From contig NZ_JADMKC010000033.1 of the NCBI RefSeq assembly GCF_018780105.1, positions 1 to 64,000 of the forward strand: a stretch of 64,000 nt of DNA. The letters run 5' to 3'. Position numbers and translations under genes: made by a program. The first letter of the stretch is position 1, and each line of letters starts with the position of its first letter. This DNA comes from Thiobacillus sp. (GTDB lineage: Bacteria > Pseudomonadota > Gammaproteobacteria > Burkholderiales > Thiobacillaceae). Of this stretch, positions 39,796-59,008 are shown piece after piece. Below the pieces are notes generated by a model that made no database searches, was not told the origin of the DNA, and was given only the letters and a program-made list of their open reading frames with translations.

Positions 39796-42700
39796 CTAGC
39801 GCCGACGCAGGTCGAGCGTGTGCGGGAATTCGCCGACGTCGGCCACCGGCGGCGGCACCATCGGTCCGGGCGCGCTGCCGCCGGGAATGAAAATGCGCAC
39901 TGTCTCCGCAGACGACTGGGTGGCCGGCATCGGGCTGACGTCAGGCGGATGGCTGAAGCTGCCGATGCTGTGCCCCCAATCCTGAAAGCGCATATGACGG
40001 CGCGACTCGGCCTCCATCGCGTTGACTGGAAAGGTGTCGTAACTGCGCCCGCCGGGGTGCACCACGCGGTAGGTGCAGCCGCCGACGGCGCGGTCGTTCC
40101 AGGTGTCGATCAGGTCGAATACCAGCGGCGAATGGATGCCGATGGTGGGGTGCAGCGCCGACGGCGGCTGCCAGGCGCGGTAGCGCACACCGCAGACGAA
40201 CTCACCATGCACGCCGGTCGGCACCAGCGGCACGCGGTGGCCGTTGCAGGCGAGCACGTAGCGGCTGTCGGTGAGCCCGCTGACCTTGACCTGCAGGCGC
40301 TCGACCGACGAATCGACGTAGCGCGCGGTGCCAAGGCTGGTGTTTTCTTCGCCCAGCACGTTCCACGGTTCGATCGCGGTACGCAGTTCGACGGCGATGT
40401 CGCCGAGCTGCAGGGTGCCGTGGCGCGGGAAACGGAATTCCAGGAACGGCTTGTACCAGTCGAGCTGGAACGGGAAGCCGGCGATGTTGAGGTCGTCGAT
40501 GACGTCCTTCAGGTCGGCCCACAAATAATGCGGCAGCATGTAGCGGTCGTGCAGCAGCGTGCCCCAGCGCACCAGCGGCTTGCGGTAGGGCTCGTTCCAG
40601 AAGCGCGCAACCAGCGCGCGCAACAGCAGCATCTGCGCCAGGCTCATGCGCAGGTGCGGCGGCATTTCGAAGCCGCGAAACTCGAGCAGGCCGAGCCGCC
40701 CGCTGGCGCTGTCGGGCGAATACAGCTTGTCGATGCAGAACTCCGAGCGGTGCGTGTTGCCGGTAAGGTCGGTGAGTAGATTGCGCAACAGGCGGTCCAC
40801 CAGCCACGGCTGCGGGGTGTCGCCGATGGGCATTTGCTGGAACGCGATTTCGAGTTCGTACAGCCGTTCGATGCGGCCTTCGTCGACGCGCGGCGCCTGG
40901 CTGGTGGGGCCGATGAACATGCCGGAGAACAGATACGACAGCGCCGGGTGGTGCTGCCAGTAGGTGATCAGGCTGGCCAGCACATCGGGACGGCGCAGGA
41001 AGGGGCTGTCGGCAGGCGTCGCACCGCCGAGCGTGACATGGTTGCCGCCGCCGGTGCCGGCGTGGCGGCCGTCGAGCATGAACTTCTCGGCAGCAAGCCT
41101 GGACAGCCGCGCCTCTTCGTATACCAGCGTCGTCGTGTCCACCAGTTGCTGCCAGTTGTGCGCGGGGTGGATGTTGACCTCGATGACGCCGGGGTCGGGG
41201 GTGACCAGCAGCTTTTCCAGACGCCCATCGGACGGCGGCGCATAGCCTTCGATCACCAGCGGAAAATTGTGCGCGGCGGCGCTGGCTTCGACCGCCGCCA
41301 GCAGGTCGAGGTAGTGTTCGAGCGTGGTGGTCGGCGGCATGAAGACGTACAGACAGCCGCCGCGCGCCTCGACGCACAAGGCGGTGTGCGGCACCGCAAC
41401 GCTCAACCTCGCCGATGCGGTTTGCGGATGCAGCTCGGGATGCTCGGGGTCGTCCGCACCGAATGGCGCAGGCGTGTAGCTGGAAAAACGCGCGGCGATT
41501 TCGCCATGAAAATCGGCCAGCGGCGGCTGGGCGGCAAAGGGGTCCACCTCGACCCAGGGTTCGCGCTCGTCCTCCGCCACCCACGGCAGCGAATTCAGCG
41601 GCAGGCGCAGGCCGATCGGCGCGTCGCCCGGGGTGAGATACAGACGGTCGCGCCGGGTCTTCCACGGCGCGCTGTGCCACGGATGTTCGCCGCCGTCCTT
41701 TTCACTCCCGCGCCAGGCCAGCGGCAGCACGTAGCCGGTCGGCGTATTCAGGCCGCGCGACAATTTGTTGGCCAGCGAGCCGCGCAGGCTGGCGCTGTCG
41801 AGTTCGGCGTGGCCGGGCTCCACATTGGGCGGCAGTTCCGCCTCCTGCAGCAGCGCAGCGAGCGCGTCTTCGTACACCGGCTGCGCGTAGCGCATCGCCA
41901 GCCCAAGATGCTGCGCCAGGGTCTTGGCGAAGTGCCGCGCGTCGATCACGCTGCGGCCGCTGTCCTGCTCCGCCTCGGCCAGCAGCGCCGGGTTCCGCCA
42001 CATCGGCACGCCGTCCTTGCGCCAGTAGATCCCCAGCGCCCAGCGCGGCAACGGCTCGCCCGGATACCACTTGCCCTGCCCGGTGTGCAGCAGCGCGCCG
42101 GGCGCCAGACGTTCGCGCAAGCGCCGCGCCAGCACTTCGGCGCGCTCCCTTTTGTGGCGACCGAAAGCATCTGTGTTCCATTCTGGTGCTTCCATGTCAT
42201 CGATCGAGACAAACGTGGGCTCGCCGCCGTGGGTCAGGCGCACGTCGCTGGCCAGCAACTTGTCATCGACCGCATAACCGAGTGCCAGAATCGCCGCCCA
42301 CGCGTCGTCGCTATACGGTAGCGTCACGCGCGGATCTTCACGAATGCGGCTGACGGTATTGGAAAACTCGAACTCGACCTCGCACGTATCGGTCATGCCC
42401 TCGATCGGTGCGGCGGAAGACGGCTGCGGCGTGGCGGCGAGCGGAATGTGGCCTTCGCCGGCGAATAGTCCCGAAGTCGGGTCCAGCCCGATCCAGCCCG
42501 CGCCGGGCAGATACACCTCGGTCCAGGCGTGCAGGTCGGTGAAGTCTTTCTCGGTACCCGACGGGCCGTCGAGCGATTTTTCGTCGGCGGTGAGCTGCAC
42601 CAGATAGCCCGACACGAAACGCGCCGCCAGGCCCAGATGGCGCAGGATCTGCACCAGCAGCCAGGCCGAGTCGCGGCACGAGCCAAGCGCCTTCTGCAGC

Positions 42701-43215
42701 GTCTCTTCCGGCGTCTGCACCCCGGGCTCCATGCGCACGGTGTAGGCGATGTCGCGCTGCAGGCGCTGGTTCAGCGCCACCAGAAAATCGTTGCAGTGCA
42801 CCCGCTCGCGCGGCACCTGATCCAGCCAGCCCTGCAACAGCGGCCCCGCCGGCTCGGTCTCGAGGTAGGGCGTCAGCTCGCGCTTCAGGGCTGCGTCGTA
42901 GTCGAACGGATAGTGCTCGGCGCTCTCCTCGACGAAGTAATCGAAGGGGTTGATCACCGTCAGATCGGCGATCACCTCGACGTCGACCGAAAATTCGCGC
43001 GTCGCCTCCGGGAACACCAGCCGCGCCAGATAGTTGCCGAACGGATCCTGCTGCCAGTTGATGAAGTGCGTCTCCGGCGTGATCTTCAGCGAGTAGGCGA
43101 GGATGGGCGTGCGCGAATGCGGCGCCGGACGCAGCCGCACCACGTGCGGGCTCAGCGAGACGCGGCGGTCGAACTTGTAGACGGTGGTGTGGCGGATGGC
43201 GACGTGGATGCTCAT
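39796..43215 (-). CDS. Transglutaminase-like / DUF2126 fusion protein
   Basis: This large protein (1139 residues) has an N-terminal bacterial transglutaminase N domain and a transglutaminase core with Cys180 (GSCRDSAW), His229 (LHAWTEVY) and Asp245 (LDPTSG). The C-terminal two thirds match DUF2126. Such fusions are regular companions of circularly permuted ATP-grasp and alpha-E genes. The core could act as a peptidase or transamidase on the ligase product. The cluster is split in two opposite strands here, joined only by the SYLF gene and terminator. Confidence 0.92.
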
Positions 43216-43258
43216 GGCGACAGTCAGTGTGCGGACTGACTGTTACAAGCAAAGGTCG
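43203..43258. repeat. 56-bp direct repeat, copy A
   Basis: This stretch (starting CGTGGATGCTCATGGCGACA) matches 52084-52139 at 46 of 56 positions by hand alignment. It covers the start codon of the transglutaminase gene and its upstream region. The two copies bracket the whole YCII/VOC block. Confidence 0.75.
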
Positions 43259-43293
43259 AGCCAGCGTTTTCAATCTATATTTGTCATGGGCCG

Positions 43294-43320
43294 TGTCGAT
43301 TTTTACCGTACTGGCACGTC
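43294..43320 (+). promoter_or_regulatory. ECF sigma promoter 1 (TGTCGA-N17-CGTC)
   Basis: TGTCGA (43294-43299) and CGTC (43317-43320, followed by GTA) are exactly 17 bases apart, 54 bases before the first YCII gene. The same pair with identical spacing occurs at 45217 and 48678. It is presumably read by the ECF42-type factor encoded at 50778. Confidence 0.8.
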
Positions 43321-43373
43321 GTAGTAGCAGAGACCATTTTGATTCCCGGTCCGCTTTTTTACAGGAGTCCATC

Positions 43374-43781
43374 ATGCGCTACATGCTCATCGTCAAGGCC
43401 ACCCCGGAGTCCGAGGCTGAAACCACCCCGGCGCCCGAGGCCGAATTGCTGGCCGAGATGGCCGACTACCATGAGCAATTGATGAAGGCCGGCGTGCTGC
43501 TCGACGGCTCGGGCCTGAAACCCAGTTCGCATGGCTGGCGCATCCGCTACGACGGCGACGCACGCAGCGTCATCGACGGGCCGTTCGCCGAAACGAAGGA
43601 GTTGATCGCCGGTTACACCCTCATCCAGGTGAAATCGCGCGAAGAGGCGATGGAATGGGCGCGGCGTTTTCCCAACCCGGCCGGGCGCGGCAAACCGGCG
43701 GAAATCGAAGTGCGGCCGCTGTACGAGCTGGACGACTTCGCGCCGTCGCCGGAGATCGAACGCATGCGCGAAATATTCTGA
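43374..43781 (+). CDS. YCII/DGPF-domain protein 1
   Basis: The 135-residue protein has the YCII fold with the DGPF motif (SVIDGPFAETKELIAGYTLIQ, about 66-86), matching ECF42-linked proteins. YCII proteins are small ferredoxin-like barrels, sometimes with a hydrolase or dehalogenase role, but most are uncharacterised. It lies directly after an ECF-type promoter and heads a run of small genes. GGAG precedes the ATG. Confidence 0.88.
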   Translation: MRYMLIVKATPESEAETTPAPEAELLAEMADYHEQLMKAGVLLDGSGLKPSSHGWRIRYDGDARSVIDGPFAETKELIAGYTLIQVKSREEAMEWARRFPNPAGRGKPAEIEVRPLYELDDFAPSPEIERMREIF

Positions 43782-43837
43782 CCTTAACTTGTGAATAGCC
43801 GAACCCTTTCTTTATAACTTTTCCAAGGAGCCCTGCC

Positions 43838-44308
43838 ATGACCGCCCCCGTCAAACCCATCCCCGAAGGCATGCACAGCCTGACCCCCCACCTCGTCTGC
43901 CGCGACGCGAACGCGGCAATGGACTTCTACATCTCCGCCTTCGGCGCGCGCGACGGCGGCCGCCTGCCCGGCCCCGACGGCAAGCTCATGCACGGCATGA
44001 TGTGGATCGGCGATTCCGCGCTGATGCTGGTCGACGAAAACCCGCAATGGGGCATGCATAGTCCGCTCGGCCTGAACGGCACGCCGGTAATCGTCCACCT
44101 GTATGTCGAGGACGTCGACGCGACGATGGCGCGCGCGGTTGAAGCCGGCGCGACGCTGACCATGCCCGCCACCGACATGTTCTGGGGCGACCGCTACGGC
44201 CAGGTGCGCGACCCGTTCGGCCACCAGTGGTCGATCGCGACGCATATCCGCGACATGTCACCCGAAGAAATTCAGGCAGCGTCGAAAACCGGCTGCGTAG
44301 GCGCCTGA
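43838..44308 (+). CDS. VOC-family protein (PhnB/glyoxalase-like) 1
   Basis: The 156-residue protein has a vicinal-oxygen-chelate fold (HLVCRDANAAMDFYISAFGA ... QVRDPFGHQWSIATH). The pattern RDPFGHxW is shared with the protein at 44735. Metal or substrate is not determinable. It starts 56 bp after the YCII gene and has an AAGGAG site. Confidence 0.88.
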   Translation: MTAPVKPIPEGMHSLTPHLVCRDANAAMDFYISAFGARDGGRLPGPDGKLMHGMMWIGDSALMLVDENPQWGMHSPLGLNGTPVIVHLYVEDVDATMARAVEAGATLTMPATDMFWGDRYGQVRDPFGHQWSIATHIRDMSPEEIQAASKTGCVGA

Positions 44309-44325
44309 CGCTGGGGGAATCAGCT

Positions 44326-44673
44326 ATGACATACACAGGAAGCTGTCACTGCGGCCACGTCCGCTTCGAAGTCGAAGGCACACTCGATGGGGCGATGGCG
44401 TGCAACTGCTCGATCTGCCAACGGAAAGGGTCGCTGCTGTGGTTTGTCCCGCGCGACCGCCTGCGCCTGCTCACGCCCGAGGAAAACTGCGCGACCTACA
44501 CATTCGGCCCACACACGATCAAGCACCGCTTCTGCCCGAAATGCGGCATCCATCCGTATGGCGAAGCCACAGATCCGGCCGGAACCCGAATGGCTGCCAT
44601 CAATATTCGATGCCTCGATCAAGTCGATCTGGAAAGCGTTCCCGTTAAACATTTCGATGGCCGGGCAATTTAA
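44326..44673 (+). CDS. GFA-family (CENP-V/GFA) zinc protein
   Basis: The 115-residue protein has the GFA zinc ligands Cys7-x-Cys9, Cys26-x-Cys28-x2-Cys31 and Cys70-x2-Cys73. The family is named for glutathione-dependent formaldehyde-activating enzymes, though most members are uncharacterised. It begins 17 bp after the VOC gene. The start with MTYTGSCHCG is the usual one. Confidence 0.88.
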   Translation: MTYTGSCHCGHVRFEVEGTLDGAMACNCSICQRKGSLLWFVPRDRLRLLTPEENCATYTFGPHTIKHRFCPKCGIHPYGEATDPAGTRMAAINIRCLDQVDLESVPVKHFDGRAI

Positions 44674-44734
44674 TGACATCGCGCGCGTACCGTCGTGGGC
44701 GAAATTGCAGTCGCTACCCCCCAGGAGACTTGCG

Positions 44735-45184
44735 ATGAAGATCGAAGAAGTGTTCGCCTATCTGTGCGTATCCAACGCCGATGCCGCCATCGATTTCTAC
44801 CGGCGCGCCTTCGGCGGCGCCGAAAAACTCCGCCTGGTCGAACCCGGCGGACGCATCGGCCATGCCGAACTCGCCTTCGGCGCCGCGACCATCATGCTCA
44901 GCGACGAGTTTCCCGAATGCGGCATCCGTTCGCCGACGGCCATCGGCGCCACGCCGGTGACGATCCACCTGCACGTGGATGACGCCGACGCCATGATCGC
45001 CAGCGCGCTGGCCGCGGGCGCAACGCTCCAACGCGCGGCCGAGGATCATTTCTACGGCGAACGTTCCGGAACCGTGACCGATCCTTTTGGCCATCGCTGG
45101 TTGATCGGCCATGCCATCGAGGCGGTCGAGCCCGACGAGATGCAGCGCCGTTACACGGCTGCGGCGAAGGACGACGCGGGATGA
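44735..45184 (+). CDS. VOC-family protein 2
   Basis: The 149-residue glyoxalase-fold protein (YLCVSNADAAIDFYRRAFGG ... GTVTDPFGHRWLIGHAIE) closely resembles VOC protein 1 in layout, so the two probably arose by duplication. A CAGGAG site precedes the ATG. It is in one run with the GFA gene. Substrate unknown. Confidence 0.88.
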   Translation: MKIEEVFAYLCVSNADAAIDFYRRAFGGAEKLRLVEPGGRIGHAELAFGAATIMLSDEFPECGIRSPTAIGATPVTIHLHVDDADAMIASALAAGATLQRAAEDHFYGERSGTVTDPFGHRWLIGHAIEAVEPDEMQRRYTAAAKDDAG

Positions 45185-45216
45185 GCGATCGGTCGCGCGA
45201 AATTTTTTCGAACCGT

Positions 45217-45243
45217 TGTCGATTCGGCTCGACCTGGTTCGTC
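45217..45243 (+). promoter_or_regulatory. ECF sigma promoter 2 (TGTCGA-N17-CGTC)
   Basis: TGTCGA (45217-45222) and CGTC (45240-45243, followed by GTA) are separated by 17 bases, 58 bases before the next VOC start. It is identical in both boxes and spacing to promoter 1. Confidence 0.8.
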
Positions 45244-45301
45244 GTATCCATGCGGAAACACACGGGCGCCGCATTGCTCAACCCGAACGAAAGGAATCAT
45301 C

Positions 45302-45688
45302 ATGCAAACCAACCCCGTCATCTGGTTCGAAATCTACGTGCAGGACATGGCGCGCGCGAAAGCGTTTTACGAAACCCTGCTGCAGCGCACCCTGGAAAAA
45401 CTCAACACGCCCGACACGCTGGAAGGCGGCGTTGAATTGTGGGCCTTTCCCATGGACTCGACGGCCATGGGTGCGTCCGGGGCGCTGGTAAAAATGGAAG
45501 GGTGCGGCTCGGGCGGCGGCGGCACGCTGGTGTATTTCACCTGCGAGGATTGCGCCGTGGAAGCCGCGCGCGCCGCGCCGGCCGGCGGCAGCGTTCTCAA
45601 GGAGAAGTTCGCCATCGGCGAATACGGCCACATCGCCCTGATCAATGACACCGAAGGCAACGTCGTCGGCCTGCACTCGATGAAATAA
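45302..45688 (+). CDS. VOC-family protein 3
   Basis: The 128-residue single-domain VOC protein begins NPVIWFEIYVQDMARAKAFYETLL and ends IALINDTEGNVVGLHS, like small enzymes or binding proteins of the glyoxalase superfamily. It contains a Gly-rich loop (GCGSGGGGTLVYF). AAGGAA precedes the ATG. It is the first gene after the second ECF-type promoter. Confidence 0.86.
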   Translation: MQTNPVIWFEIYVQDMARAKAFYETLLQRTLEKLNTPDTLEGGVELWAFPMDSTAMGASGALVKMEGCGSGGGGTLVYFTCEDCAVEAARAAPAGGSVLKEKFAIGEYGHIALINDTEGNVVGLHSMK

Positions 45689-45740
45689 GCGGCGCGCCAT
45701 GTGGTGGAAAGCCCATTCACTCTCGAACAAGGAAAATCCC

Positions 45741-46097
45741 ATGCGTTACCTGTTGATGATCGTAGAACCACGCGGCGCGCGCGAAGCGCGCAGCGAGGAC
45801 GAAGGCCGCGCGCTCTACGCCGAAATGGTCGAATTCGGCCAGCGGCTCGCCGCACGCGGGCAGTTGATTGCCAGCGAATCGCTGCGCCCGGACAGCCACG
45901 GCGTGCGCGTGCAACAGCGCGGCGAGACGCCCTCGCTGGTCGACGGCCCCTTCGCCGAAGCACGCGAAATGGTCGGCGGCTTCTATCTCGTCGAATGCGC
46001 CGGCCGCGACGCGGCGCTGACCATCGCCCAGGACTGCCCGGCCGCGCGCTTCGCCACCGTCGAGGTGCGCGAATGCGCGCCGTGCTACGTGCAATGA
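45741..46097 (+). CDS. YCII/DGPF-domain protein 2
   Basis: The 118-residue protein has MRYLLMIVEP at the start and the DGPF motif (SLVDGPFAEAREMVGGFYLVE). It is a paralogue of the proteins at 43374 and 48812. It contains two Cys close to the C-terminus (ECAPCYVQ). It follows VOC protein 3 by 52 bp. Confidence 0.87.
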   Translation: MRYLLMIVEPRGAREARSEDEGRALYAEMVEFGQRLAARGQLIASESLRPDSHGVRVQQRGETPSLVDGPFAEAREMVGGFYLVECAGRDAALTIAQDCPAARFATVEVRECAPCYVQ

Positions 46098-46215
46098 AAC
46101 CCGGAAAAACAGGGCGATGACCCAATCCCGGCCCTCGAACGTTTCACGCGTTCATTGACGCGCGGATCGATGCGCGTGCGGAGATGTGCAGACCTCAATC
46201 TCATGGAGAAATATC

Positions 46216-46701
46216 ATGACAAAGATCGCCAAGAACACGATTTGCCTTTGGTTTGACCGAACCGCCGAGGACGCGGCGCAGTTCTACGCCGCCACCTTTC
46301 CCGATTCCTCGGTCGACGCGGTGTATCGCGCACCGGGAGATTTTCCTTCCGGGAAGCAAGGGGATGTGTTGACGGTCAGTTTCACCGTGATGGGCATTCC
46401 GTGCCTCGGGCTCAACGGAGGCCCCGCATTCAGTCACAGCGAAGCGTTCTCGTTTCAGGTTGCGACCGATGACCAGGCCGAAACGGACCGCTACTGGAAC
46501 GCAATCGTCGGCAATGGCGGCGAGGAGAGTGAGTGTGGCTGGTGCAAGGACAAATGGGGATTGTCCTGGCAAATCACGCCACGGGCGCTGATGGACGCGA
46601 TCGCCGACCCCGATCCTGCTGCCGCCAAACGCGCGTTTGATTCGATGATGACCATGCGAAAAATTGACATCGCCACGATCGAGGCGGCGCGCCGTGGCTA
46701 A
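46216..46701 (+). CDS. PhnB-like VOC protein (3-demethylubiquinone-methyltransferase-like)
   Basis: The 161-residue protein has the PhnB/3-dmu-9_3-mt signatures: TICLWFDRTAEDAAQFYAATF, LGLNGGPAF, WCKDKWGLSWQITP and a closing MRKIDIATIEAA. Despite the domain name such proteins are not proven methyltransferases. A relic of a second copy lies at 48748. TGGAGAAA precedes the ATG. Confidence 0.87.
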   Translation: MTKIAKNTICLWFDRTAEDAAQFYAATFPDSSVDAVYRAPGDFPSGKQGDVLTVSFTVMGIPCLGLNGGPAFSHSEAFSFQVATDDQAETDRYWNAIVGNGGEESECGWCKDKWGLSWQITPRALMDAIADPDPAAAKRAFDSMMTMRKIDIATIEAARRG

Positions 46702-46767
46702 AATTTCCGGCGTTCAAGCGGAGACCGCGATACCGGGCGAAGCGCCATCATCCTTGAGGAGTCTTTC

Positions 46768-47172
46768 ATGCAAGTAACCGTTGAAACCACCGTGGCCGCG
46801 CCGGTCGATGCCGTCTGGCGCGCCTACACCACCCCCGAGGACATCGTGCAGTGGAACGCCGCCTCGGACGACTGGCACACCACGCGGGCCGAAGTCGACC
46901 TGCGCGAAGGCGGCGCCTTCTCCGCGCGCATGGAAGCCAGGGACGGCAGCCAGGGCTTCGATTTTGCCGGCACCTACACCCGCATCGTGCCGCACCGCCT
47001 GATCGAATACGTCTTCGGCGACCGCCACGCGCGCGTCGAGTTCGACGAAACGGCCGACGGCGTACGTGTGCGCGTCGCCTTCGACCCCGAAACCACGTTC
47101 CCGGTCGAGTATCAGCGCGCGGGCTGGCAAGCGATTCTCGATAACTTCACGCGCCACGTGGCGGCGCGCTGA
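46768..47172 (+). CDS. AHSA1/SRPBCC-domain protein
   Basis: The 134-residue START-like fold protein opens MQVTVETTVAAPVDAVWRAYTTPEDIVQWNA, the AHSA1 signature, and closes WQAILDNFTRHV. Members bind hydrophobic ligands. GAGGAG stands before the ATG. It is 66 bp after the PhnB-like gene. Confidence 0.88.
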   Translation: MQVTVETTVAAPVDAVWRAYTTPEDIVQWNAASDDWHTTRAEVDLREGGAFSARMEARDGSQGFDFAGTYTRIVPHRLIEYVFGDRHARVEFDETADGVRVRVAFDPETTFPVEYQRAGWQAILDNFTRHVAAR

Positions 47173-47199
47173 CGCATATACTCGAACAAGGAGAGTGAG

Positions 47200-48312
47200 A
47201 TGCCCCGTATTCGTGTTTTGGTTGGAACGCGCAAGGGCGCGTTCATCCTGACCTCCGACGCGGCCCGTAACGACTGGCAGGTGAGCGGGCCGCATTTCGG
47301 CGGCTGGGAAATCTTTCATATCGCAGGCTCGCCGGCGAACCCCGACCGGCTCTATGCCTCGCAGACCAGCAGCTGGTTCGGCCAGGTGATCCAGCGTTCC
47401 GACGACGGCGGCGCAACCTGGAACCCGGTCGGCAACGATTTCGCCTACGTCGGCGACCCCGGCACGCATCTGTATTACGACGGCACGGCCAAGCCGTGGG
47501 CGTTCAAGCGCGTGTGGCATCTGGAACCTTCGCCGACCGACCCGGACACGGTCTATGCGGGTGTGGAAGACGCCGCGCTGTTCCGCTCGACCGACGGCGG
47601 GCTGACCTGGCAGGAACTGCCCGCCCTGCGCGAACAGCAGGGCGCGAAATGGATGCCCGGCGCGGGCGGTATGTGTCTGCACACGATTCTGCTCGACCCG
47701 GTGAACCCGGCGCGGATGTACGTGGCGATCTCGGCGGCCGGTGCGTTCCGCAGCGACGACGGCGGCGCGAGCTGGAAACCGGTCAACCGTGGCCTGCATT
47801 CGCAATATATTCCAGACCCGCAAGCCGAAGTCGGCCACTGCGTGCACCGCATCGCGATGCATCCGGCGCGGCCCGAGACGCTGTTCATGCAGAAGCACTG
47901 GGATGTGATGCGCAGCGACGATGCCGGCGATTCGTGGTTCGAAATCAGCGGCAACCTGCCCAGCGATTTCGGCTTCGCGATGGCGGTGCATGCGCACGAA
48001 CCCGACACCGTCTACGTCGTGCCGATCCTGAGCGATTCCGAGCACTACCCGCCCGAGGGCAAGCTACGCGTGTATCGCAGCAAGGCGGGTGGCAACGCCT
48101 GGGAAGCGTTGACCGACGGCCTGCCGCAGCAGCACTGCTATGTCAATGTGCTGCGCGACGCGATGGCAGTCGACAGTCTTGATCCCTGCGGCGTGTACTT
48201 CGGCACCACCGGTGGCCAGGTCTACGTCTCACCCGACGCGGGCGACCACTGGCAGGCGATCGTGCGCGACCTGCCGGCCGTGCTCTCGGTCAGCGTACAG
48301 ACGCTGCCCTGA
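47200..48312 (+). CDS. BNR-repeat beta-propeller protein
   Basis: The 370-residue protein has five Asp-box (BNR) motifs: [32 protein letters not shown] and SPDAGDHW. It thus forms a propeller. It has no signal peptide and lacks the Arg triad context of sialidases, so it is not called one. It is followed by a MoaD-like gene with a one-base gap, a pairing that suggests function together. GGAG precedes the ATG. Confidence 0.87.
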
Positions 48313-48313
48313 C

Positions 48314-48637
48314 ATGGCTGCCGATCTCGACAGGCACACCGTCCGCGTCGTGCTGCCGTACCACCTGTACACGCTGGCGCGGTGCAGCACCACCGAGGTC
48401 GAGCTCGACCTGACCGGCCCAGTCACACTCGCCGCCGTGCTCGACGCGCTCGAAGCGGCCTACCCCATGCTCGCCGGTGCCGTGCGCGACCGTGTCACGG
48501 GTCAGCGCCGCCCGCTGGTGCGCTTCTACGCCTGCCAGGACGATCTCTCGAATATCGCGCCCGATGCGCTGCTGCCATATGAGGTCGCCGCCGGACGCGA
48601 ACCGCTGGTCGTCGTCGGCGCCATCGCGGGCGGCTGA
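48314..48637 (+). CDS. MoaD/ThiS-like small protein ending in Gly-Gly
   Basis: The 107-residue protein resembles the ubiquitin-like MoaD/ThiS fold ([19 protein letters not shown]) and terminates exactly in AIAGG. A C-terminal Gly-Gly is what sulfur-carrier proteins need for adenylation and thiocarboxylation. No E1-like gene is adjacent. It starts one base after the BNR stop. Confidence 0.78.
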
Positions 48638-48677
48638 AGCCCAGAACGATGCCACACGCAGAAAATTCATCTCTCGC

Positions 48678-48704
48678 TGTCGAATTCGCCTGTTTCCGTG
48701 CGTC
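48678..48704 (+). promoter_or_regulatory. ECF sigma promoter 3 (TGTCGA-N17-CGTC)
   Basis: TGTCGA (48678-48683) and CGTC (48701-48704, followed by GTT) have the same 17-base spacing as promoters 1 and 2. It precedes a decayed PhnB-like gene end and the YCII gene at 48812. Confidence 0.78.
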
Positions 48705-48747
48705 GTTAAAATGAGTCCGGAGAGTTCGGGCAACGCAGTAGACATCC

Positions 48748-48801
48748 ATGCGGATGAAAAAAATCGACATCGCCGCGCTCGAACGCGCGGCAGAAGCTTG
48801 A
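48748..48801 (+). pseudogene. 3' remnant of a PhnB-like VOC gene
   Basis: Seventeen codons, MRMKKIDIAALERAAEA and stop, match the C-terminal MRKIDIATIEAA of the intact PhnB-like protein at 46216. The rest of the gene is gone, so it is a deletion scar left between promoter 3 and the YCII gene. Confidence 0.7.
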
Positions 48802-48811
48802 GGACGCAGCC

Positions 48812-49186
48812 ATGAAATTCATTTGCCTGATTTGCGCCGAACAGATGATGGAACACCTCGAACCCGCCGACGCGGCGGGACATTTCGCCGAGTACGCCGC
48901 GTTCACCGAGGCGATCAAGCGCGAGGGCCATTTCGTTTCCGGCAACCGCCTGACCCCGCCCGGCACGGCGAAAACCGTGCGCGTGCGCGATGGCCAGGCG
49001 CACATCACCGACGGGCCCTTCGCCGAAACGCGGGAGTTGCTCGGCGGCTACTACCTGATCGAAGCGCCGGACATGGACACGGCGCTTGCAATCGCCGCCC
49101 GCATCCCCGGCGCGCAGCGCGGCTGCGTGGAAGTGCGGCCGATCGCGGACGATGCGCCGACCCGCGCGCTGCGGCTGGATGGTTGA
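48812..49186 (+). CDS. YCII/DGPF-domain protein 3
   Basis: The 124-residue protein starts MKFICLICAEQMMEHL and has the DGPF motif (AHITDGPFAETRELLGGYYLIE). It is the third paralogue in the block, lies under ECF-type promoter 3, and is closest to the DGPF proteins found with ECF42 factors. Start chosen at the ATG after GAGG at about 48800. Confidence 0.88.
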   Translation: MKFICLICAEQMMEHLEPADAAGHFAEYAAFTEAIKREGHFVSGNRLTPPGTAKTVRVRDGQAHITDGPFAETRELLGGYYLIEAPDMDTALAIAARIPGAQRGCVEVRPIADDAPTRALRLDG

Positions 49187-49350
49187 CCAGCCCCGAATCG
49201 GAATGAAAAGGCAGAACCCCGAATTTCCCTTTGCCACGCTGGAATCAGACGTCGGCGGAAATACGTTCCTTCGGCGTGCGTGCTGGTTCACCCGAATACC
49301 GGGAAAGCATTCCCGACCACTAAACTTTTTGAAGCGCAGAGGAACTCGCA

Positions 49351-49989
49351 ATGACCATCATCATTACCGCCTTCGAACGATCGCCCGACGGCGGCAAGGG
49401 GCTGGCGCGTGACACGCGCGTGCGCTGGGCGATTGAGGAGGTGGGCCGGCCTTACGAGGTTCGTCTGCTTTCGTTTTCTGCAATGAAGGAACCCGCGCAT
49501 CTGGCGCTGCATCCGTTCGGGCAAATCCCCACCTACGAAGAGGGCGACCTCGTGCTGTTCGAGTCCGGCGCGATCGTCCTGCATATCGCCGATCACAATG
49601 CGGGGCTGTTGCCCGACGATGCCAATGCCCGGGCGCGTGCGATTACATGGGTGTTTGCCGCGCTCAACACCGTGGAGCCGCCGATCCTCGACCTCGCAAA
49701 CGCAAAGATACTTGAGGGCAACAAATCCTGGAGTATGGCGCGTCTGCCGCTGGTCGAAGATCGCGTGCGCGTCCGCATGCGCCTGCTTGCTGCTCGCTTG
49801 GGCGATGCCGACTGGCTCAATGGCGCGTTCAGTGCGGGCGACCTGATGATGGTGTCCGTGCTGCTCAGGTTGAGAGCATCGGGCATTCTTGACGAATTCC
49901 CGAATCTCGCTACGTATGTCGCCCGCGGCGAAGCGCGGCCCGCCTACCAGCGGGCTTTCGCCGCCCAATTGGCGATCAACGCCGGCTAG
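49351..49989 (+). CDS. Glutathione S-transferase family protein
   Basis: The 212-residue protein has a thioredoxin-fold N-terminus with HPFGQIPTYEEGDLVLFESGAIVLHIAD, the GST glutathione-site pattern, and a helical C-domain with AGDLMMVSVLLRL. GAGG precedes the ATG. It lies 164 bp after the YCII gene, and no ECF-type promoter box was found in this gap. Confidence 0.9.
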   Translation: MTIIITAFERSPDGGKGLARDTRVRWAIEEVGRPYEVRLLSFSAMKEPAHLALHPFGQIPTYEEGDLVLFESGAIVLHIADHNAGLLPDDANARARAITWVFAALNTVEPPILDLANAKILEGNKSWSMARLPLVEDRVRVRMRLLAARLGDADWLNGAFSAGDLMMVSVLLRLRASGILDEFPNLATYVARGEARPAYQRAFAAQLAINAG

Positions 49990-50006
49990 TCAAAGGAGAA
50001 CGACTC

Positions 50007-50408
50007 ATGGTCAAACAAATCTTCGTCAATCTACCCGTGGCCGATCTAAAGGCGTCCATCGCCTTCTTCGCCCAGCTCGGCTTCAGCTTCAACCCGGACT
50101 TCACCGACGACACCGCCACCTGCATGATCGTCGGCGAGAATATCTACGCCATGCTGCTCACGCGCGAACGCTTCGCCGGCTTTGCCCCGCATCCGCCCGC
50201 CGACGCGCGCGCCGCGACCGAGGTACTGCTGGCCTTGCAGCTCGACAGCCGGGATGCGGTAGACACGATGGTGCGCGAGGCGGTGGCTGCCGGCGGCAAC
50301 ACCTACAGCGCGCCGCAGGATCACGGCTTCATGTATCAGCACGGCTTTCAGGACCCGGATGGACACGTCTGGGAAGTGTTCCAGATGAATCCCGTGCAAG
50401 GAGGCTGA
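50007..50408 (+). CDS. VOC-family protein 4
   Basis: The 133-residue protein has the VOC pattern (IFVNLPVADLKASIAFFAQLGF ... DPDGHVWEVFQM). It resembles lactoylglutathione lyase-like proteins, but a specific reaction cannot be given. It follows the GST gene by 17 bp with an AAAGGAG site. Confidence 0.88.
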   Translation: MVKQIFVNLPVADLKASIAFFAQLGFSFNPDFTDDTATCMIVGENIYAMLLTRERFAGFAPHPPADARAATEVLLALQLDSRDAVDTMVREAVAAGGNTYSAPQDHGFMYQHGFQDPDGHVWEVFQMNPVQGG

Positions 50409-50409
50409 C

Positions 50410-50781
50410 ATGGCCTATGTCGATGGCTACGTGCTGCCGGTTCCGCTGGCGAAGCTTGCCGATTATCGCCACCTCGCACGCAAGGCCGGCAAGATATGGA
50501 TCGAACACGGCGCGCTGGAAGTCCACGAATGCGTCGCCGACGACGTGCAGCCCGGCAAGCTCACCTCGTTTCCGCAGGCGGTGAAGCGGAAGCCGGACGA
50601 GACGGTGGTGTTTTCCTGGATCGTGTTCAAATCGCGCAGGGATCGCGACCGAGTGAACGCGAAGGTGATGGCCGATCCTCGGCTGGCCTTCATGGCGAGC
50701 GCCGATCCCGCGGTACTGCCCTTCGACGGCAAGCGCATGTTCTGGGGCGGCTTCAAACCTATGGTCAGTCTGGTGCGATGA
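50410..50781 (+). CDS. DUF1428-family protein
   Basis: The 123-residue protein begins MAYVDGYVLPVPLAKLADYR and has the GKRMFWGGF signature at the end, matching DUF1428. Its start is one base after the preceding stop (TGAC-ATG), and its last codons overlap the sigma-factor start. It is therefore in the same operon. Function unknown. Confidence 0.87.
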   Translation: MAYVDGYVLPVPLAKLADYRHLARKAGKIWIEHGALEVHECVADDVQPGKLTSFPQAVKRKPDETVVFSWIVFKSRRDRDRVNAKVMADPRLAFMASADPAVLPFDGKRMFWGGFKPMVSLVR

Positions 50782-52046
50782 CGACTGCTGCCGATACCCT
50801 TGCTGCCATCTGGCACATCGAATCGGCCAAGGTCGTCGCGGCGGTCGCGCGACTCACGCGCGACCTGGGGCTGGCAGAGGAATGCGCGCAGGACGCGCTG
50901 GTGGCAGCGCTGGAGCACTGGCCGACGGAAGGCGTGCCCGACAATCCCGCTGCCTGGCTCACCACAGCAGCCAAACGGCGCGCGCTCGACATCCTGCGCC
51001 ACCGCACGCAGGCCGCGCCCAAGCACGTCGAGCTGGCGGTCGAGCTCGATACGCAGCACGCCATCCGCGAAGCCGATTTCGCTGAGGCGGTGGATGCTGC
51101 GCTCGACGACGACATCGGCGACGATTTGCTCGCGCTCGTCTTCACCGCCTGTCATCCACTGCTCTCGCCGGAAGCCCGCGCGGCCTTGACCCTGAAAGTG
51201 GTCGGCGGCCTGTCGGTGGAGGAGATCGCGCGCGCCTACCTCAAGCCCACCGCCACCATTGCACAGCGCATCGTGCGTGCCAAGCGCAGCCTGGCCGAAG
51301 CGCGCGTGCCCTTCGAAACGCCGCGCGGCGCGGAACTGCACGCGCGGCTGCCGTCGGTGCTGGAAGTGCTCTACCTGATTTTCAACGAAGGCTATGCCGC
51401 CACAGCGGGTGACGACTGGATGCGTCCCGCGCTGTGCGAGGAAGCACAGCGCTTGGGCCGGGTGCTCGCCAGCCGCCTGCCAGACGTCGCCGAGGTGCAT
51501 GGCTTGCTCGCGCTGATGGAAATCCAGGCATCCCGACTCGCCGCGCGCGTCGATGCGTTGGGTCAGCCGGTGCTGTTGATGGATCAGGACCGCACGCGTT
51601 GGGATCGCCTGCTGATCCGTCGCGGGCTGGCCGCGCTGGCACACGCCGAGAGCTTGCCGGGCCCGTTCGGTCCCTACACCCTGCAAGCTGCCATCGCCGC
51701 CTGTCACGCCCGTGCCGCTGTTGCCGCCGACACCGACTGGTCGCGCATCGCCGCGCTCTACGACGCGCTGGCGCAAGTCGCGCCCTCGCCGGTGGTGGCG
51801 CTCAATCGCGCCGTCGCCGTCGGCATGGCGCACGGCCCGGCGGCCGGGCTGGAACTGGTCGAGGCGCTCGTTACCGAACCGGCGCTCAAGACCTATCACC
51901 TGCTGCCGGCGGTACGCGGCGATCTGCTGGCCAAGCTGGATCGCATCGAAGAAGCGCGCGCCGAATTCGCGCGCGCTGCACAGTTGGCGCAGAACGCGCG
52001 GGAGCGGGCTTTGTTGCTGGCGCGGGCGGCGAAAACCGGGAAGTGA
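50778..52046 (+). CDS. ECF sigma factor, ECF42-like, with C-terminal extension
   Basis: The 422-residue protein has sigma region 2 near the N-terminus (ESAKVVAAVARLTRDLGLAEECAQDALVAAL) and region 4 near 125-175 (LSPEARAALTLKVVGGLSVEEIARAYL). A long C-terminal TPR-like helical extension replaces an anti-sigma partner. ECF42 factors have this shape and control DGPF/YCII genes. Three TGTCGA-N17-CGTC promoters lie in the block upstream. It overlaps DUF1428 by four bases. Confidence 0.9.
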   Translation: MTTAADTLAAIWHIESAKVVAAVARLTRDLGLAEECAQDALVAALEHWPTEGVPDNPAAWLTTAAKRRALDILRHRTQAAPKHVELAVELDTQHAIREADFAEAVDAALDDDIGDDLLALVFTACHPLLSPEARAALTLKVVGGLSVEEIARAYLKPTATIAQRIVRAKRSLAEARVPFETPRGAELHARLPSVLEVLYLIFNEGYAATAGDDWMRPALCEEAQRLGRVLASRLPDVAEVHGLLALMEIQASRLAARVDALGQPVLLMDQDRTRWDRLLIRRGLAALAHAESLPGPFGPYTLQAAIAACHARAAVAADTDWSRIAALYDALAQVAPSPVVALNRAVAVGMAHGPAAGLELVEALVTEPALKTYHLLPAVRGDLLAKLDRIEEARAEFARAAQLAQNARERALLLARAAKTGK

Positions 52047-52083
52047 GTGAGCCAGGCCCGGTTCACCCTGGCGCGCGCTGCAT

Positions 52084-52139
52084 CGTGGATGCGTATGGTG
52101 ACAGTCAGTAAGCGGACTATCTGTTACAAACAAGGGGCG
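52084..52139. repeat. 56-bp direct repeat, copy B
   Basis: Copy of 43203-43258 with ten mismatches, lying 37 bases after the sigma-factor stop codon. It contains no start codon in the corresponding place. Whether it marks an insertion boundary is inferred from position only. Confidence 0.75.
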
Positions 52140-52739
52140 GGGCAGATGGCGAGCTGAGAATAGAAACGGCGTTACTACATGTTCGATTCGTCCATCTGAT
52201 ATACAGCGCTTGTCAGGACAGACATTCCGTTCGCGCCAGCTACAGCTTTCGACCCGATTCTGTCTTCCAGCAGACCGCTTCATCTGTCCGGTGCTCGGCC
52301 AGAACCGACGGTGGCGTACTGCGCCACCTAGGTCAGTGCACCGCGCACCGGCCATTGGCTAGAAATGCCGCTTAATGGCCGCTTTCAACTTCAGCGAATG
52401 CGTACTCCAGACCCACTTAGGACTGTTAAGCGCCGGTGTGTGAAAGTCCGATTCGGGATCAGAAACGGTCATCCAGCCCAGGATATTCAGTCGGCTAATT
52501 CTGGCTGACATCAGTAGGTTACCGTTCACTAATCCAAAACTTCTTTGTAATTTTCGACAGCAGTGTTGACAAAATCTGACGGTGATTGCTGATCAGAGGA
52601 TGTCGGATACAAAAAGCGGGGGATCAGGTTGGTCATCCGATTGCTTGTCATATTCCCTTGCAATGATGGGCAAATTCAAATAGTTCCTGGAAGAACGAGG
52701 TGGCACGAGGCTGCGGGAAGCGGCAGTGTGCAGCCAACC
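52140..52739. other. Gene-free stretch before the second TonB-like gene
   Basis: These 600 bases are less GC-rich than the flanks and hold no credible gene. A TTGACA near 52566 could be a -35 for the following gene, but no good -10 was found. It separates the sigma-factor regulon from the TonB/receptor cluster. Confidence 0.5.
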
Positions 52740-53519
52740 ATGACGATGATCCCAGATGCGATGCGTCTACCGTTGACTTTCGGCCTGTCCGGCGCGCTGC
52801 ATGCCGTAGCCTTGTCAGGTTTCGCGCCACCACCTACCACTGCCCTGCCGTCGCTGTCCATCCAGGTCCGTCTGCTTGATGAGCATCCTATCCAGTTAGT
52901 TGGGCCGATCCCTGTCGGTATACCAGACACCAGAACCGCCCAGGCATTGCATCCCAAGCCACCCCAAAGCCGCCATGCCTCTGTGGGTTCGTCGTTCCAC
53001 TCTCCTGCCATGGCACCAGCAGAGGAGTCGTCGGCTGTGACGCCTGCAGCGGAGGTCGCGCGCCTATCTGAGACTGTAAAGGGTCAGGTGCGTCACTCCG
53101 AACCGTTGGATAGCGCTGCTCTACCCACTCCAGGAACGTCAGCCCTATTGCCTCTTGCACTTCCCAGCACTGCAGTAATCGGCAGCCTGCCGGGGTCGCC
53201 TGGCGGCGACTCACCTAAGGCCACAAGCATGTTGGCGGGCACGCTCGCTGCCCCCTACCAGGCGCCCAAGGTCCTGCGTTCCATTGCCCCCGAGTACCCC
53301 GAAGAGGCCCGCTGGGAGAAGCGGACGGGGCTGGCGACCCTGGGCTTTCGCGTGGAGGCCGACGGTTCGGTGGTCGAGGTCAGGATGCTGCATTCCTCTG
53401 GCCATGCCGACCTGGATGCGGCAGCGGTGGAGTCGTTGCGCCATTGGCGTTTTGTACTCCCTACGGGAGGGGCACCTGCCTCTTGGTACCGCTACCTTTT
53501 CCGGTTCGAATTGACCTGA
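52740..53519 (+). CDS. TonB-like C-terminal-domain protein
   Basis: The 259-residue protein has a membrane helix near residues 8-30 (MRLPLTFGLSGALHAVALSG), a Pro/Ser-rich linker to about 180 and a TonB C-terminal domain (APEYPEEARWEKRTGLATLGFRVEADGSVVEV ... ESLRHWRF). No exbB/exbD are near. Its position ahead of the receptor and phosphoesterases suggests it powers that receptor. The start is not firm: the ATG at 52740 is used, and 52746 or 52761 are possible. No good ribosome site is visible. Confidence 0.78.
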   Translation: MTMIPDAMRLPLTFGLSGALHAVALSGFAPPPTTALPSLSIQVRLLDEHPIQLVGPIPVGIPDTRTAQALHPKPPQSRHASVGSSFHSPAMAPAEESSAVTPAAEVARLSETVKGQVRHSEPLDSAALPTPGTSALLPLALPSTAVIGSLPGSPGGDSPKATSMLAGTLAAPYQAPKVLRSIAPEYPEEARWEKRTGLATLGFRVEADGSVVEVRMLHSSGHADLDAAAVESLRHWRFVLPTGGAPASWYRYLFRFELT

Positions 53520-53632
53520 TGCACTGGCAGAAGACATACCTGATCGGCACTCAGAGCAGACACCCATTTCAAGCGCGGAACCACTGCACCCAGCGCGCGC
53601 TAACCCTCAAATTTTGTTAGGAAGAAAAAGCT

Positions 53633-53710
53633 ATGAAGCTCCTCCGATTTCAGCCGCCCCGATATAGCGAACTCAAGCTGCGCGAGGCCTCCTCACGCCG
53701 CAGGTGCTGA
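53633..53710 (+). CDS. Short ORF of 25 residues, doubtful
   Basis: MKLLRFQPPRYSELKLREAS then a few Arg and a Cys, preceded by TAGGAAGAAAAAGCT. It has no recognisable family and may be a truncated gene start. A hairpin (CCGGTTTCC/GGAAACCGG) lies at 53758-53783. Confidence 0.3.
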   Translation: MKLLRFQPPRYSELKLREASSRRRC

Positions 53711-53857
53711 ACAACATCAGACATGGATCGGCGAGGGCATGACGCCGCTCAAGTAAGCCGGTTTCCTTCCCAGCGGAAACCGGTGTTGGTCGATTGGACC
53801 GACACCCCGGCATCCCCTACGGACGCCACCCCACCCAACTGTATTCAGGAGATTCAT

Positions 53858-56806
53858 ATGCATCACCTCCAAATCAAACGCAAGACCCTGAGCCTGCTCA
53901 TCGCTGCCAGCTTCACCGCCACCTCCGGCGCCGCTCTGGCCAAGGATTCTGTCAGCCTCCCCTACAAGCACGGCAATGATCTGCTAATAGGCGAAATGCT
54001 TCCCACCGGCGTACGCATTACCCCCGAGGCGGCCAGCGGTGCCATGTTCCAGACCCTCAACCCCGATTTGCCAACCAACCCCGATTTCGTGGCCGGCCAG
54101 GCAGTGGCTACCAGCACCAGCCCGGACGGCAACACACTGCTCATCCTTACCAGTGGTTATAACCGCAATAACGGCCCAACCGGCAGCCGCGTCGCCACTG
54201 AGTCCAACGAGTACGTCTTCGTCTATGACATATCCGCCGACAAGCCTGTCAAACGCCAGGTCATCCAGGTACCCAACACCTTCAACGGCATTGCCTGGAA
54301 TCCCAGCGGCTTTGAGTTCTACGTTTCCGGCGGCGTCGACGACAACATCCATGTCTATGGCCTGCAAGCCGACACCTGGACCGAACAGGCCGCCATCACG
54401 CTGGGGCATGGCAATGTTGGCCTTGGTATCAACGTGCGCCCTGTCGCTGCTGGCATGGCCGTCACCCAGGACGGAAAACGCCTGGTGGTCGCCAACATGC
54501 AGAACGAAAGCGTCAGCGTGGTCGATCTGGTGACCCGTGCCGAGATTGCCGAACTAGATCTGCGCCCCGGCAAGATCGATCCCACTCAGACCGGTGTGCC
54601 GGGCGGTTCCTATCTCTACTGGGTGGCGATCAAGGGCAACGGTAAAGCCTATGTAACCAGTCAGCGCGACAGCGAGGTGGTAGTGCTGGACATCGCCGCC
54701 GCTCAGCCAGCTGTGGTCAACCGTTTCAGCGTAGGTGGGCAGCCAAACAAGATGCTGCTGAACCGCGATCAGTCCCGCCTGTTCGTGGCAAACGGCAACA
54801 GCGACAGCGTCTCGGTGATCGACACCAATACCGACACCGTGCTGGATGAATTCAACGTCACCGCCCCCAAGCGCGTGCTATCCAAAGCCGAAAAGCTGCG
54901 CGGCGCCAACCCCAATAGCTTGGCTTTGACACCGGACGAGCGCTTCCTTCTGGTCACCAACGGCGGTACCAACTCCGTGGCCGTGGTGAAGCTCGGCCGG
55001 ATGGAACACGAAGGCCGCGCCATGTACGAAGGCCGTGACGAGGCACGCGAGGATGAGCGCAAGAGCAGAGTGATTGGTCTGATCCCTACCGGTTGGTACC
55101 CCAACTCAGTGAGTCTGAGCAAGAACGGCGACACGCTCTACGTAGTCAACGGCAAGAGCAACACCGGCCCCAACTCGGGCGCCTGCCGAAACACCACATC
55201 CATCGTGGCGGGCTCTCTCAATGACTGTAACGCCAACAACCAATACGTTTGGCAGATCACCAAGGCGGGCTTTTTGAGTATGCCCATGCCCGAAGAGCGG
55301 GAGCTGGCCAAGCTCACCTGGCAGGTGGCGAAGAACAACGGCTTCTCCAAGACCGACAAACACGACCAAGCCCAAGAGGCGATGGCCTTCCTGCGCAACA
55401 AGATCAAACACGTGATCTACGTGGTGAAGGAAAATCGCACCTACGATCAGGTGCTGGGAGATCTGGAGAAAGGCAACGGCGACCCTAGCCTGACGCTCTT
55501 CCCCGAACCCATTTCCCCTAACCATCACGCCTTGGCCCGCAAGTACGTGACCCTCGACAATTTTCATGACAGCGGCAGTACAAGCAACGACGGTTGGAAC
55601 TGGACGACCGCAGCGCGCACAACCGATTACACCGAGAAAACGATCATGGTGAACTACGCCGGGCGCGGCTTTACTTACGACTGGGAAGGTGCCAATCGCA
55701 ACATCAACGTGAGCCTGCCCACCACCGCCGAGCGTATCGCCCAGGACCCGGCCAATCCCAACGACCCAGACCTGCTGGCTGGTACGGCGGACGTGGCCGC
55801 GCCGGACACCGCCGAGGAGGCTGGCGCCGGTTATTTGTGGGACGGAGCCTTGCGCGCCGGGCTGAGTATTCGCAACTACGGCTTCTTCGTAGGCAACCTA
55901 GCCAGTTCCAACGCTATGACCGAAGAGCAATTGGCTCGCCCCTATGACAACAACTTGGTGCAGGTTGGATCCCGCAAGCAGGCGCTTGCCCCGCACACCG
56001 ATCTCTACTACCGCGGCTACGATCAAAACAACGCCGACTTCTATCTTTTGAAAGAGTGGGAGCGAGAGTTCGACCAGTACGCAGCCAAAGGCGAACTGCC
56101 CAACCTGTCGTTTGTGCGACTGCCCCACGACCACTTCGGCAACTACGCCACAGCCAAGTTCGGGGTGAATACCGTGGAGACACAAATGGCTGACAATGAC
56201 TATGCCATCGGGCTGCTGGTGGAGAAGGTGGCAAACAGTCCATTCAAGGACGACACCCTGATCTTCATCGTCGAGGACGACGCTCAGAATGGTCCCGATC
56301 ATGTGGATGCCCACCGCAGCATCGCCTACGTGGTGGGACCCTATGTGAAACAGGGCGCCTTGGTGTCCGAGCACTACACCACGGTGAGCATGCTGCGCAC
56401 CATCGAAGATATCCTGGGCATCAAGCCTATGGGCATCACCGATGGCCTGGCCCTTCCCATGGCGGAGTTGTTCGAGAAGAAGAAGCGTCCCTGGGGCTAC
56501 TCAGCCCTGGTTCCCGAGGTGTTGCGTACCACCGGGTTGCCATTGCCGGAGCGCACAGCCGCTAACTCTCTGCCACCCACCGGATTGACCATGATCTACG
56601 CCAAGCCCAAGCACAGCGCCGAATACTGGGCCGAGGCCATGGGAGGCCAGGACTTCTCCGTTGAGGACAACCTGGACGAACCGCGCTTTAACCGCACCCT
56701 ATGGCAGGGGTTGAAGGACGCGCCTTACCCCAGCGAACGTCATGGCCGCGACCTGTCCGAAGAGCGTACCAAGCTGCCTGACAGCTTGAGCCTACAGCAA
56801 CGCTAG
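53858..56806 (+). CDS. Secreted YncE-like propeller / phosphoesterase fusion 1
   Basis: The 982-residue protein has a signal peptide (LSLLIAASFTATSGAALA). A YVTN/YncE-type beta-propeller (about 45-480; repeats such as LFVANGNSDSVSVIDTNTDTV) is followed by an alkaline-phosphatase-superfamily phosphoesterase domain from about 515. The motif VVKENRTYDQVLGD carries the metal-binding Glu/Asn, and FIVEDDAQNGPDHVDAHRS the second metal site. The proposed nucleophile region is SNDGWNWTTAARTTDY. A CAGGAG site precedes the ATG. A terminator follows. Its partner is the similar protein at 59009 and the receptor between them. Confidence 0.9.
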   Translation: MHHLQIKRKTLSLLIAASFTATSGAALAKDSVSLPYKHGNDLLIGEMLPTGVRITPEAASGAMFQTLNPDLPTNPDFVAGQAVATSTSPDGNTLLILTSGYNRNNGPTGSRVATESNEYVFVYDISADKPVKRQVIQVPNTFNGIAWNPSGFEFYVSGGVDDNIHVYGLQADTWTEQAAITLGHGNVGLGINVRPVAAGMAVTQDGKRLVVANMQNESVSVVDLVTRAEIAELDLRPGKIDPTQTGVPGGSYLYWVAIKGNGKAYVTSQRDSEVVVLDIAAAQPAVVNRFSVGGQPNKMLLNRDQSRLFVANGNSDSVSVIDTNTDTVLDEFNVTAPKRVLSKAEKLRGANPNSLALTPDERFLLVTNGGTNSVAVVKLGRMEHEGRAMYEGRDEAREDERKSRVIGLIPTGWYPNSVSLSKNGDTLYVVNGKSNTGPNSGACRNTTSIVAGSLNDCNANNQYVWQITKAGFLSMPMPEERELAKLTWQVAKNNGFSKTDKHDQAQEAMAFLRNKIKHVIYVVKENRTYDQVLGDLEKGNGDPSLTLFPEPISPNHHALARKYVTLDNFHDSGSTSNDGWNWTTAARTTDYTEKTIMVNYAGRGFTYDWEGANRNINVSLPTTAERIAQDPANPNDPDLLAGTADVAAPDTAEEAGAGYLWDGALRAGLSIRNYGFFVGNLASSNAMTEEQLARPYDNNLVQVGSRKQALAPHTDLYYRGYDQNNADFYLLKEWEREFDQYAAKGELPNLSFVRLPHDHFGNYATAKFGVNTVETQMADNDYAIGLLVEKVANSPFKDDTLIFIVEDDAQNGPDHVDAHRSIAYVVGPYVKQGALVSEHYTTVSMLRTIEDILGIKPMGITDGLALPMAELFEKKKRPWGYSALVPEVLRTTGLPLPERTAANSLPPTGLTMIYAKPKHSAEYWAEAMGGQDFSVEDNLDEPRFNRTLWQGLKDAPYPSERHGRDLSEERTKLPDSLSLQQR

Positions 56807-56826
56807 AGCTGCGCTAACAGGCTTTT

Positions 56827-56857
56827 GGGCGGACAGCCATGGCTGTCCGCCCATTTT
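56827..56857 (+). terminator. Palindromic terminator after fusion 1
   Basis: GGGCGGACAGCCATGGCTGT continuing to CCGCCC is a perfect 26-base palindrome, followed by ATTTTCG. It sits 20 bases after the stop and before the receptor gene, so the receptor has its own promoter or read-through. Confidence 0.85.
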
Positions 56858-56954
56858 CGTTAACCCCACAACTCCACCCCCACGTCTGCAAGTCGGGCTT
56901 CAAGCCGACTATCAGCACCATTTTCGACCTTCTGCTCAGTACACAGTCTGAAAA

Positions 56955-58976: not shown

Positions 58977-59008
58977 TCCGCAAACCTGCAACTGAAATGG
59001 AGAACTTC

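Follow-up and report, generated by a model that had tools for sequence, protein, structure and literature searches.

The window analysed here is a 64,000-nucleotide (64-kb) stretch of contig NZ_JADMKC010000033.1 of Thiobacillus sp., and its main feature is a block of 15 co-directional genes spanning 43374 to 52046. The block contains families such as YCII/DGPF, VOC (glyoxalase) and AHSA1/SRPBCC and is closed by the gene of an ECF42-type sigma factor, as the preliminary description had said. Three copies of a promoter-like motif, which we call P1, P2 and P3, are found within it, each on the gene strand and each preceding a gene (Table 1). We consider it very probable that the block is an ECF42 sigma-factor regulon with TGTCGA-N17-CGTCGT promoters, which also includes an unlinked gene on another contig, C12. 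The preliminary description placed the motifs at 43294, 45217 and 48678 with a 17-base spacer, and all of these coordinates and the spacing proved exact, with the second box reading CGTCGTA twice and CGTCGTT once. It also put them before YCII or VOC genes, which agrees with the Pfam matches of the first genes behind P1 (YCII), P2 (VOC) and P3 (YCII).

In the window, TGTCGA-N17-CGTC occurs three times, while 100 shuffled sequences contained 0.24 copies on average and none reached three. The preliminary description had proposed a genome search for further copies of the motif, with a random-level frequency counting against the regulon; the outcome depends on the form of the motif, the short form being at that level and the full form not. 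Across the 3,317,970 bp in 62 contigs, the 10-base form TGTCGA-N17-CGTC gave 10 matches against 8 for a reversed control; the 10-base core alone is therefore at chance level and uninformative, and the bases 3’ of the core decide. Only four of these ten matches extend to the full form, TGTCGA-N17-CGTCGT[A/T]: P1, P2, P3 and a site on contig C12. That three of the ten core matches fall within 8.9 kb has, by a Poisson estimate, a probability of ~3e-6. A looser pattern, TGTCG-N18-CGTCGTA with up to one mismatch, was rejected as evidence because it gave 9 sites versus 37 for the reversed control. Its sole exact match beyond the four, on contig C51, is internal to an open frame of 498 aa (minus strand, L037 1270-2766) and was set aside, and a candidate at C37:46893 was dropped as its box reads CGTCTCC.

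The same motif accompanies other ECF42 sigma genes. Using an alignment of 17 sigma proteins, we collected 80 distant loci, the best 80 of at least 590, whose titles name Proteobacteria, Actinobacteria, Acidobacteria, Gemmatimonadetes and others; together with 16 related loci they make 96, one contig being counted twice (L079 within L152). The highest identities among these best 80 are 78% (L152, Proteobacteria bacterium, the contig of genome G035) and 74% (L120, Thiobacillus sp.), and the set may lack records that are very close to the window. At the 80 loci, TGTCGA-N17-CG[AT]C was found 71 times on the sigma strand, spread over 57 of the loci, against 6 times on the opposite strand, and TGTCGA-N17-CGTCGTA 10 times (8 loci) on the sigma strand versus none opposite. 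Counts were also raised at spacings of 12, 15, 18 and 21, but there on both strands. Behind the 71 sites, 70 open reading frames (ORFs) were scanned, one site having no ORF by the rule used, and 47 of them matched YCII, 6 PF00903 and 3 DUF6596. A YCII match is present at 73 of the 80 distant and 14 of the 16 related loci. Within the genus, the sites likewise precede YCII and VOC genes; the P1 equivalent in the relative G033 has the same boxes, and P3 in the relative G028 is identical through CGTCGTT.

The fourth full site, TGTCGA-N17-CGTCGTA on contig C12, lies 49 bases upstream of an AHSA1/SRPBCC gene (L011 3426-3955; PF08327, E 1.5e-30), which is a further copy of the kind that the preliminary description had asked about, and the family is one present in the block. 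Of 60 genomes, 16 have a homologue of this gene. A TGTCG-N18-CGnC site precedes the homologue in six of the nine genomes that have a DUF6596 sigma gene (G000, G035, G016, G005, G051 and G057) and in none of the seven that lack one (one-sided Fisher 0.0105, a value that counts the own genome, which prompted the test, and is uncorrected for kinship, the G005 and G016 sites being nearly the same). Spacings of 15-19 were allowed and all matches had 17, with G005, which reaches a contig end, read at 17 only.

The sigma protein contains regions 2 and 4 (PF04542, E 2.1e-09; PF08281, E 7.4e-09), whereas further sigma regions had no match at E 0.001. Regions 2 and 4 are followed by a C-terminal extension of ~230 aa, which is conserved across the 17 aligned sigma sequences and has DUF6596 at residues 190-290 (E 4.3e-37). 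We infer that DUF6596 marks ECF42 factors because of the YCII neighbourhoods and promoters at DUF6596 sigma loci, and this gene is the single DUF6596 match in the genome. No Pfam TPR match was found in the window protein at E 0.001, while TPR_2 was present in 1 of the 70 ORFs behind the motif. The sigma gene has three YCII/DGPF neighbours within the block. The earlier proposal that the block holds both an ECF42 factor and the promoters it uses thus has the support of the family matches, the single DUF6596 sigma gene, the motif at 57 of 80 loci, YCII behind 47 of 70 sites and the published promoters with mapped starts of the Sinorhizobium meliloti ECF42 factor RpoE10, to which we return below.

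Table 1 Features of the gene block and its surroundings (window coordinates)
Feature	Position	Strand	Details
Left direct repeat	43203..43264		62 bp, 80.6% to right copy; covers 5’ end and upstream region of transglutaminase/DUF2126 gene
P1, predicted ECF42 promoter	43294..43323	+	-35 TGTCGA 43294-43299, -10 CGTCGTA 43317-43323; YCII start codon 50 bases on
YCII/DGPF protein 1	43374..43781	+	PF03795 E 4.2e-18; first gene behind P1
VOC (glyoxalase) protein	43838..44308	+	PF00903 E 8.3e-17
GFA (glutathione-dependent formaldehyde-activating) family protein	44326..44673	+	PF04828 E 2.4e-16
VOC protein	44735..45184	+	PF00903 E 1.7e-13
P2, predicted ECF42 promoter	45217..45246	+	-35 45217-45222, -10 CGTCGTA 45240-45246; VOC start codon 55 bases on
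VOC protein	45302..45688	+	PF00903 E 3.8e-05; first gene behind P2
YCII/DGPF protein 2	45741..46097	+	PF03795 E 6.4e-17
PhnB-type VOC protein (Pfam 3-dmu-9_3-mt)	46216..46701	+	PF06983 E 1.7e-48
AHSA1/SRPBCC protein	46768..47172	+	PF08327 E 5.6e-23
BNR/Asp-box beta-propeller protein	47200..48312	+	PF15902 E 1.6e-14, PF02012 E 1.2e-11
Small ThiS/MoaD-like protein	48314..48637	+	C-terminal GAIAGG; family match sub-threshold
P3, predicted ECF42 promoter	48678..48707	+	-35 48678-48683, -10 CGTCGTT 48701-48707; YCII 104 bases on
YCII/DGPF protein 3	48812..49186	+	PF03795 E 5.8e-19; first gene behind P3
Glutathione S-transferase (GST)	49351..49989	+	PF02798 E 1.1e-12
VOC protein	50007..50408	+	PF00903 E 1.3e-10
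DUF1428 protein	50410..50781	+	PF07237 E 1.2e-40; overlaps sigma start (ATGA)
ECF42-type sigma factor, 422 aa	50778..52046	+	Sigma70_r2, Sigma70_r4_2, DUF6596
Right direct repeat	52084..52145		62 bp; 37 bases past sigma stop codon

In the mechanism we propose, the sigma factor encoded at 50778-52046 would direct RNA polymerase to the TGTCGA-N17-CGTCGT promoters. P1 would serve YCII-VOC-GFA-VOC, P2 would serve VOC-YCII-PhnB-AHSA1-BNR-MoaD-like, P3 would serve YCII-GST-VOC-DUF1428-sigma, and the fourth promoter on contig C12 would serve the AHSA1/SRPBCC gene. Since the P3 run ends with the sigma gene, positive autoregulation is predicted. Anti-sigma families had no match among the 15 block proteins (Pfam, E 0.001), so the activity of the factor is probably gated by its own C-terminal extension, perhaps via a YCII protein. 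Small reactive or toxic compounds are the probable ligands or substrates of the gene products, and a detoxification or stress role is plausible from the family names. The families listed in the preliminary description are right, with the reservation that the MoaD-like assignment is sub-threshold (best ThiS E 0.024 among eight homologues); the block also holds the PhnB-type VOC (3-dmu-9_3-mt) and DUF1428 genes, which were not on that list. At the 96 ECF42 loci outside the window, neither the GFA nor the GST gene had a tblastn match at E 1e-6 over half its length, which suggests that the block has probably gained genes. The GST gene is also absent from between the same neighbour genes in G033.

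We also considered that the YCII proteins, and perhaps the VOC proteins, act chiefly as sensors that bind a signal and then the sigma extension, and are not mere detoxifying enzymes. Such a part would fit the frequency of YCII, which follows 47 of the 70 motif sites scanned and is present at 73 of the 80 distant loci. A review of the group, which notes that a YCII neighbour is conserved and that some ECF factors carry a fused YCII domain, proposes that YCII takes part in regulation (PMC8999054). The block, on the other hand, holds three different YCII paralogues and many enzyme-like families, and we regard a mainly sensing role as possible but rather doubtful.

The beta-propeller gene and the small gene behind it (47200-48637) form a pair that recurs at other ECF42 loci, including those of G051, from another family of the order, and of L154, a Gemmatimonadetes bin; both genes are found together at 7 of the 96 loci. 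The small protein ends in GAIAGG, a C-terminus with a Gly-Gly ending that is invariant in all eight aligned homologues. The ThiS profile scored 13.3 bits against this protein, below the cut-off of 22.5, and five of the eight homologues matched ThiS at E up to 1. No solved structure gave a convincing match, the best being a flavoprotein (E 0.17), with the archaeal modifier SAMP1 at 0.86. A Gly-Gly-ending ORF stands directly behind the propeller at 12 of 29 loci by a crude ORF rule. The idea that the pair is an ECF42-specific system was rejected: in a class-wide sample of 369 genomes the propeller is present in 40 (E up to 1e-40), a count that includes the own genome, and a DUF6596 sigma gene accompanies it in 10 of the remaining 39, so the propeller is commoner without ECF42 than with it.

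The two direct repeats bracket the whole block, near the limits that the preliminary description had drawn. The left copy overlaps the neighbouring gene (39796-43215, minus strand), which encodes a 1139-aa transglutaminase and DUF2126 (putative amidoligase) protein. The 29-base core of the repeat, with up to three mismatches, occurs in the genome at these two places only. Among 56 genomes of the genus it is found in five, twice in G000 and G033, which both have the block, and once in G018, G019 and G027, where a single full copy precedes DUF2126 and DUF6596 has no match. The single copy of G018 comes after the DUF2126 start, at an apparent empty site, and ~90 bases past the copy lies sequence like the right flank of the block in the window (82 bp at 78%, E 1.9e-12). 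Since the repeats flank the block and G018 has a single copy at this apparent empty site, the likely event is that the whole block was inserted or lost at the DUF2126 start. In the midpoint-rooted DUF2126 gene tree, G018 lies outside G000, G033, G027 and G019, at a fork that is below the marked support. In G027 and G019, we also observed a second, weaker repeat copy, which lies ~1.28 kb away and is separated from the first copy by other sequence (L090 3039-4349, L091 3420-4731). That such repeats are a general ECF42 feature is not supported, as they span the sigma gene in two of nine stretches (the window and G033) and not in the other seven, which are also of the genus.

The repeats could instead be operators of a repressor rather than insertion scars, which we regard as unlikely. 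Each copy holds an inverted repeat around ACAGTCAGT, in the left copy a 9+9 inverted repeat stands 4 bases upstream of the start codon of DUF2126, and the single full copies before DUF2126 in the three genomes with no DUF6596 match would fit such a role. However, a piece of the DUF2126 start region is also retained in the right copy, behind the sigma gene, and the one copy of G018 has on its two sides sequence that resembles the two outer flanks. A more elaborate form of insertion or loss is a self-contained cassette that would enter or leave at the fixed DUF2126 5’ end between 62-bp repeats with its own sigma factor and promoters, gaining and losing modules (GFA, GST, and the pair of propeller and Gly-Gly ThiS-like protein), while the unlinked SRPBCC gene would keep its promoter only in genomes with the factor. 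We offer this picture tentatively and expect that it is probably not correct as a whole.

Elsewhere in the window, a TonB-like protein is followed by two large proteins, each with both a lactonase beta-propeller and a phosphoesterase family match, whose genes lie around a TonB-dependent receptor gene (52629-61567), and a short tandem repeat of period 7 is visible as stepped matches at 14309-14360.

Several observations weigh against the ECF42 regulon. In addition to the chance-level count of the 10-base core, TGTCGA-N17-CG[AT]C is absent from the sigma strand at 23 of the 80 distant loci, and P2 has no counterpart by motif in G033, the most similar block. A 17-spaced TGTCG[AG]/CG[AT]C site is missing in 4 of the 16 relatives’ ECF42 stretches (L077, L079, L086 and L087) and at the Gemmatimonadetes locus L154, the stretches of L086, L087 and L154 ending at contig ends. 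Three of the nine ECF42 genomes (G026, G032 and G042) have no site before the AHSA1 homologue. In S. meliloti, the YCII-sigma operon carries the motif across its start site and is not induced (PMC6180224); since RpoE10 does not raise the YCII-rpoE10 operon, autoregulation is no rule of the ECF42 group. That the motifs are coincidental or belong to another sigma factor, the block being transcribed from ordinary promoters, would agree with the core count and with the ECF42 stretches that have no site, but it is highly improbable given the clustering (P ~3e-6), the spacing of exactly 17, the strand bias of 71 versus 6 around other ECF42 genes and the same arrangement mapped for RpoE10. The ECF42 regulon seems to be readable from the DNA itself, in that the full-motif genome search returns four sites, all before expected families and one of them unlinked, and it would provide a compact, testable regulon for the question of which signal ECF42 factors sense.

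The ECF42 factors of Streptomyces venezuelae are reported to have a promoter consensus of TGTCGA / CG(A/T)C and reportedly stand in smaller gene neighbourhoods. They resemble the window sigma factor in having a C-terminal extension and differ from it in being actinobacterial. This extension, ~200 residues long in S. venezuelae, is essential for activity there (cited in PMC8999054), and the review describes a C-terminal extension needed for activity and a conserved YCII neighbour as traits of the group (PMC8999054). ECF-10 of Pseudomonas putida, which like the window sigma factor belongs to the ECF42 group, has been tied to stress and antibiotic response (cited in PMC8999054, PMC6180224). In a search of the literature by titles and the beginnings of abstracts, none of the titles listed concerned this gene block.

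RpoE10 offers a close comparison: its promoters, with mapped starts, lie before glyoxalase-like and hydrophobic-ligand-binding genes, and they read TGTCGG-N17-CGTC when the spacer is counted on the sequences in its Table 1 (PMC6180224). Over-expression of RpoE10 raised six genes (PMC6180224). Because the RpoE10 promoters and the traits given in the review match, the block is a member of the already described ECF42 group; its promoter type is not new, and the block leaves the existing knowledge of the family unchanged. The two systems share the N17 promoters, a YCII gene close upstream of the one for the sigma factor and an unlinked target, which in S. meliloti is an operon on another replicon, whereas the -35 element ends in G in S. 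meliloti and in A in the window (PMC6180224).

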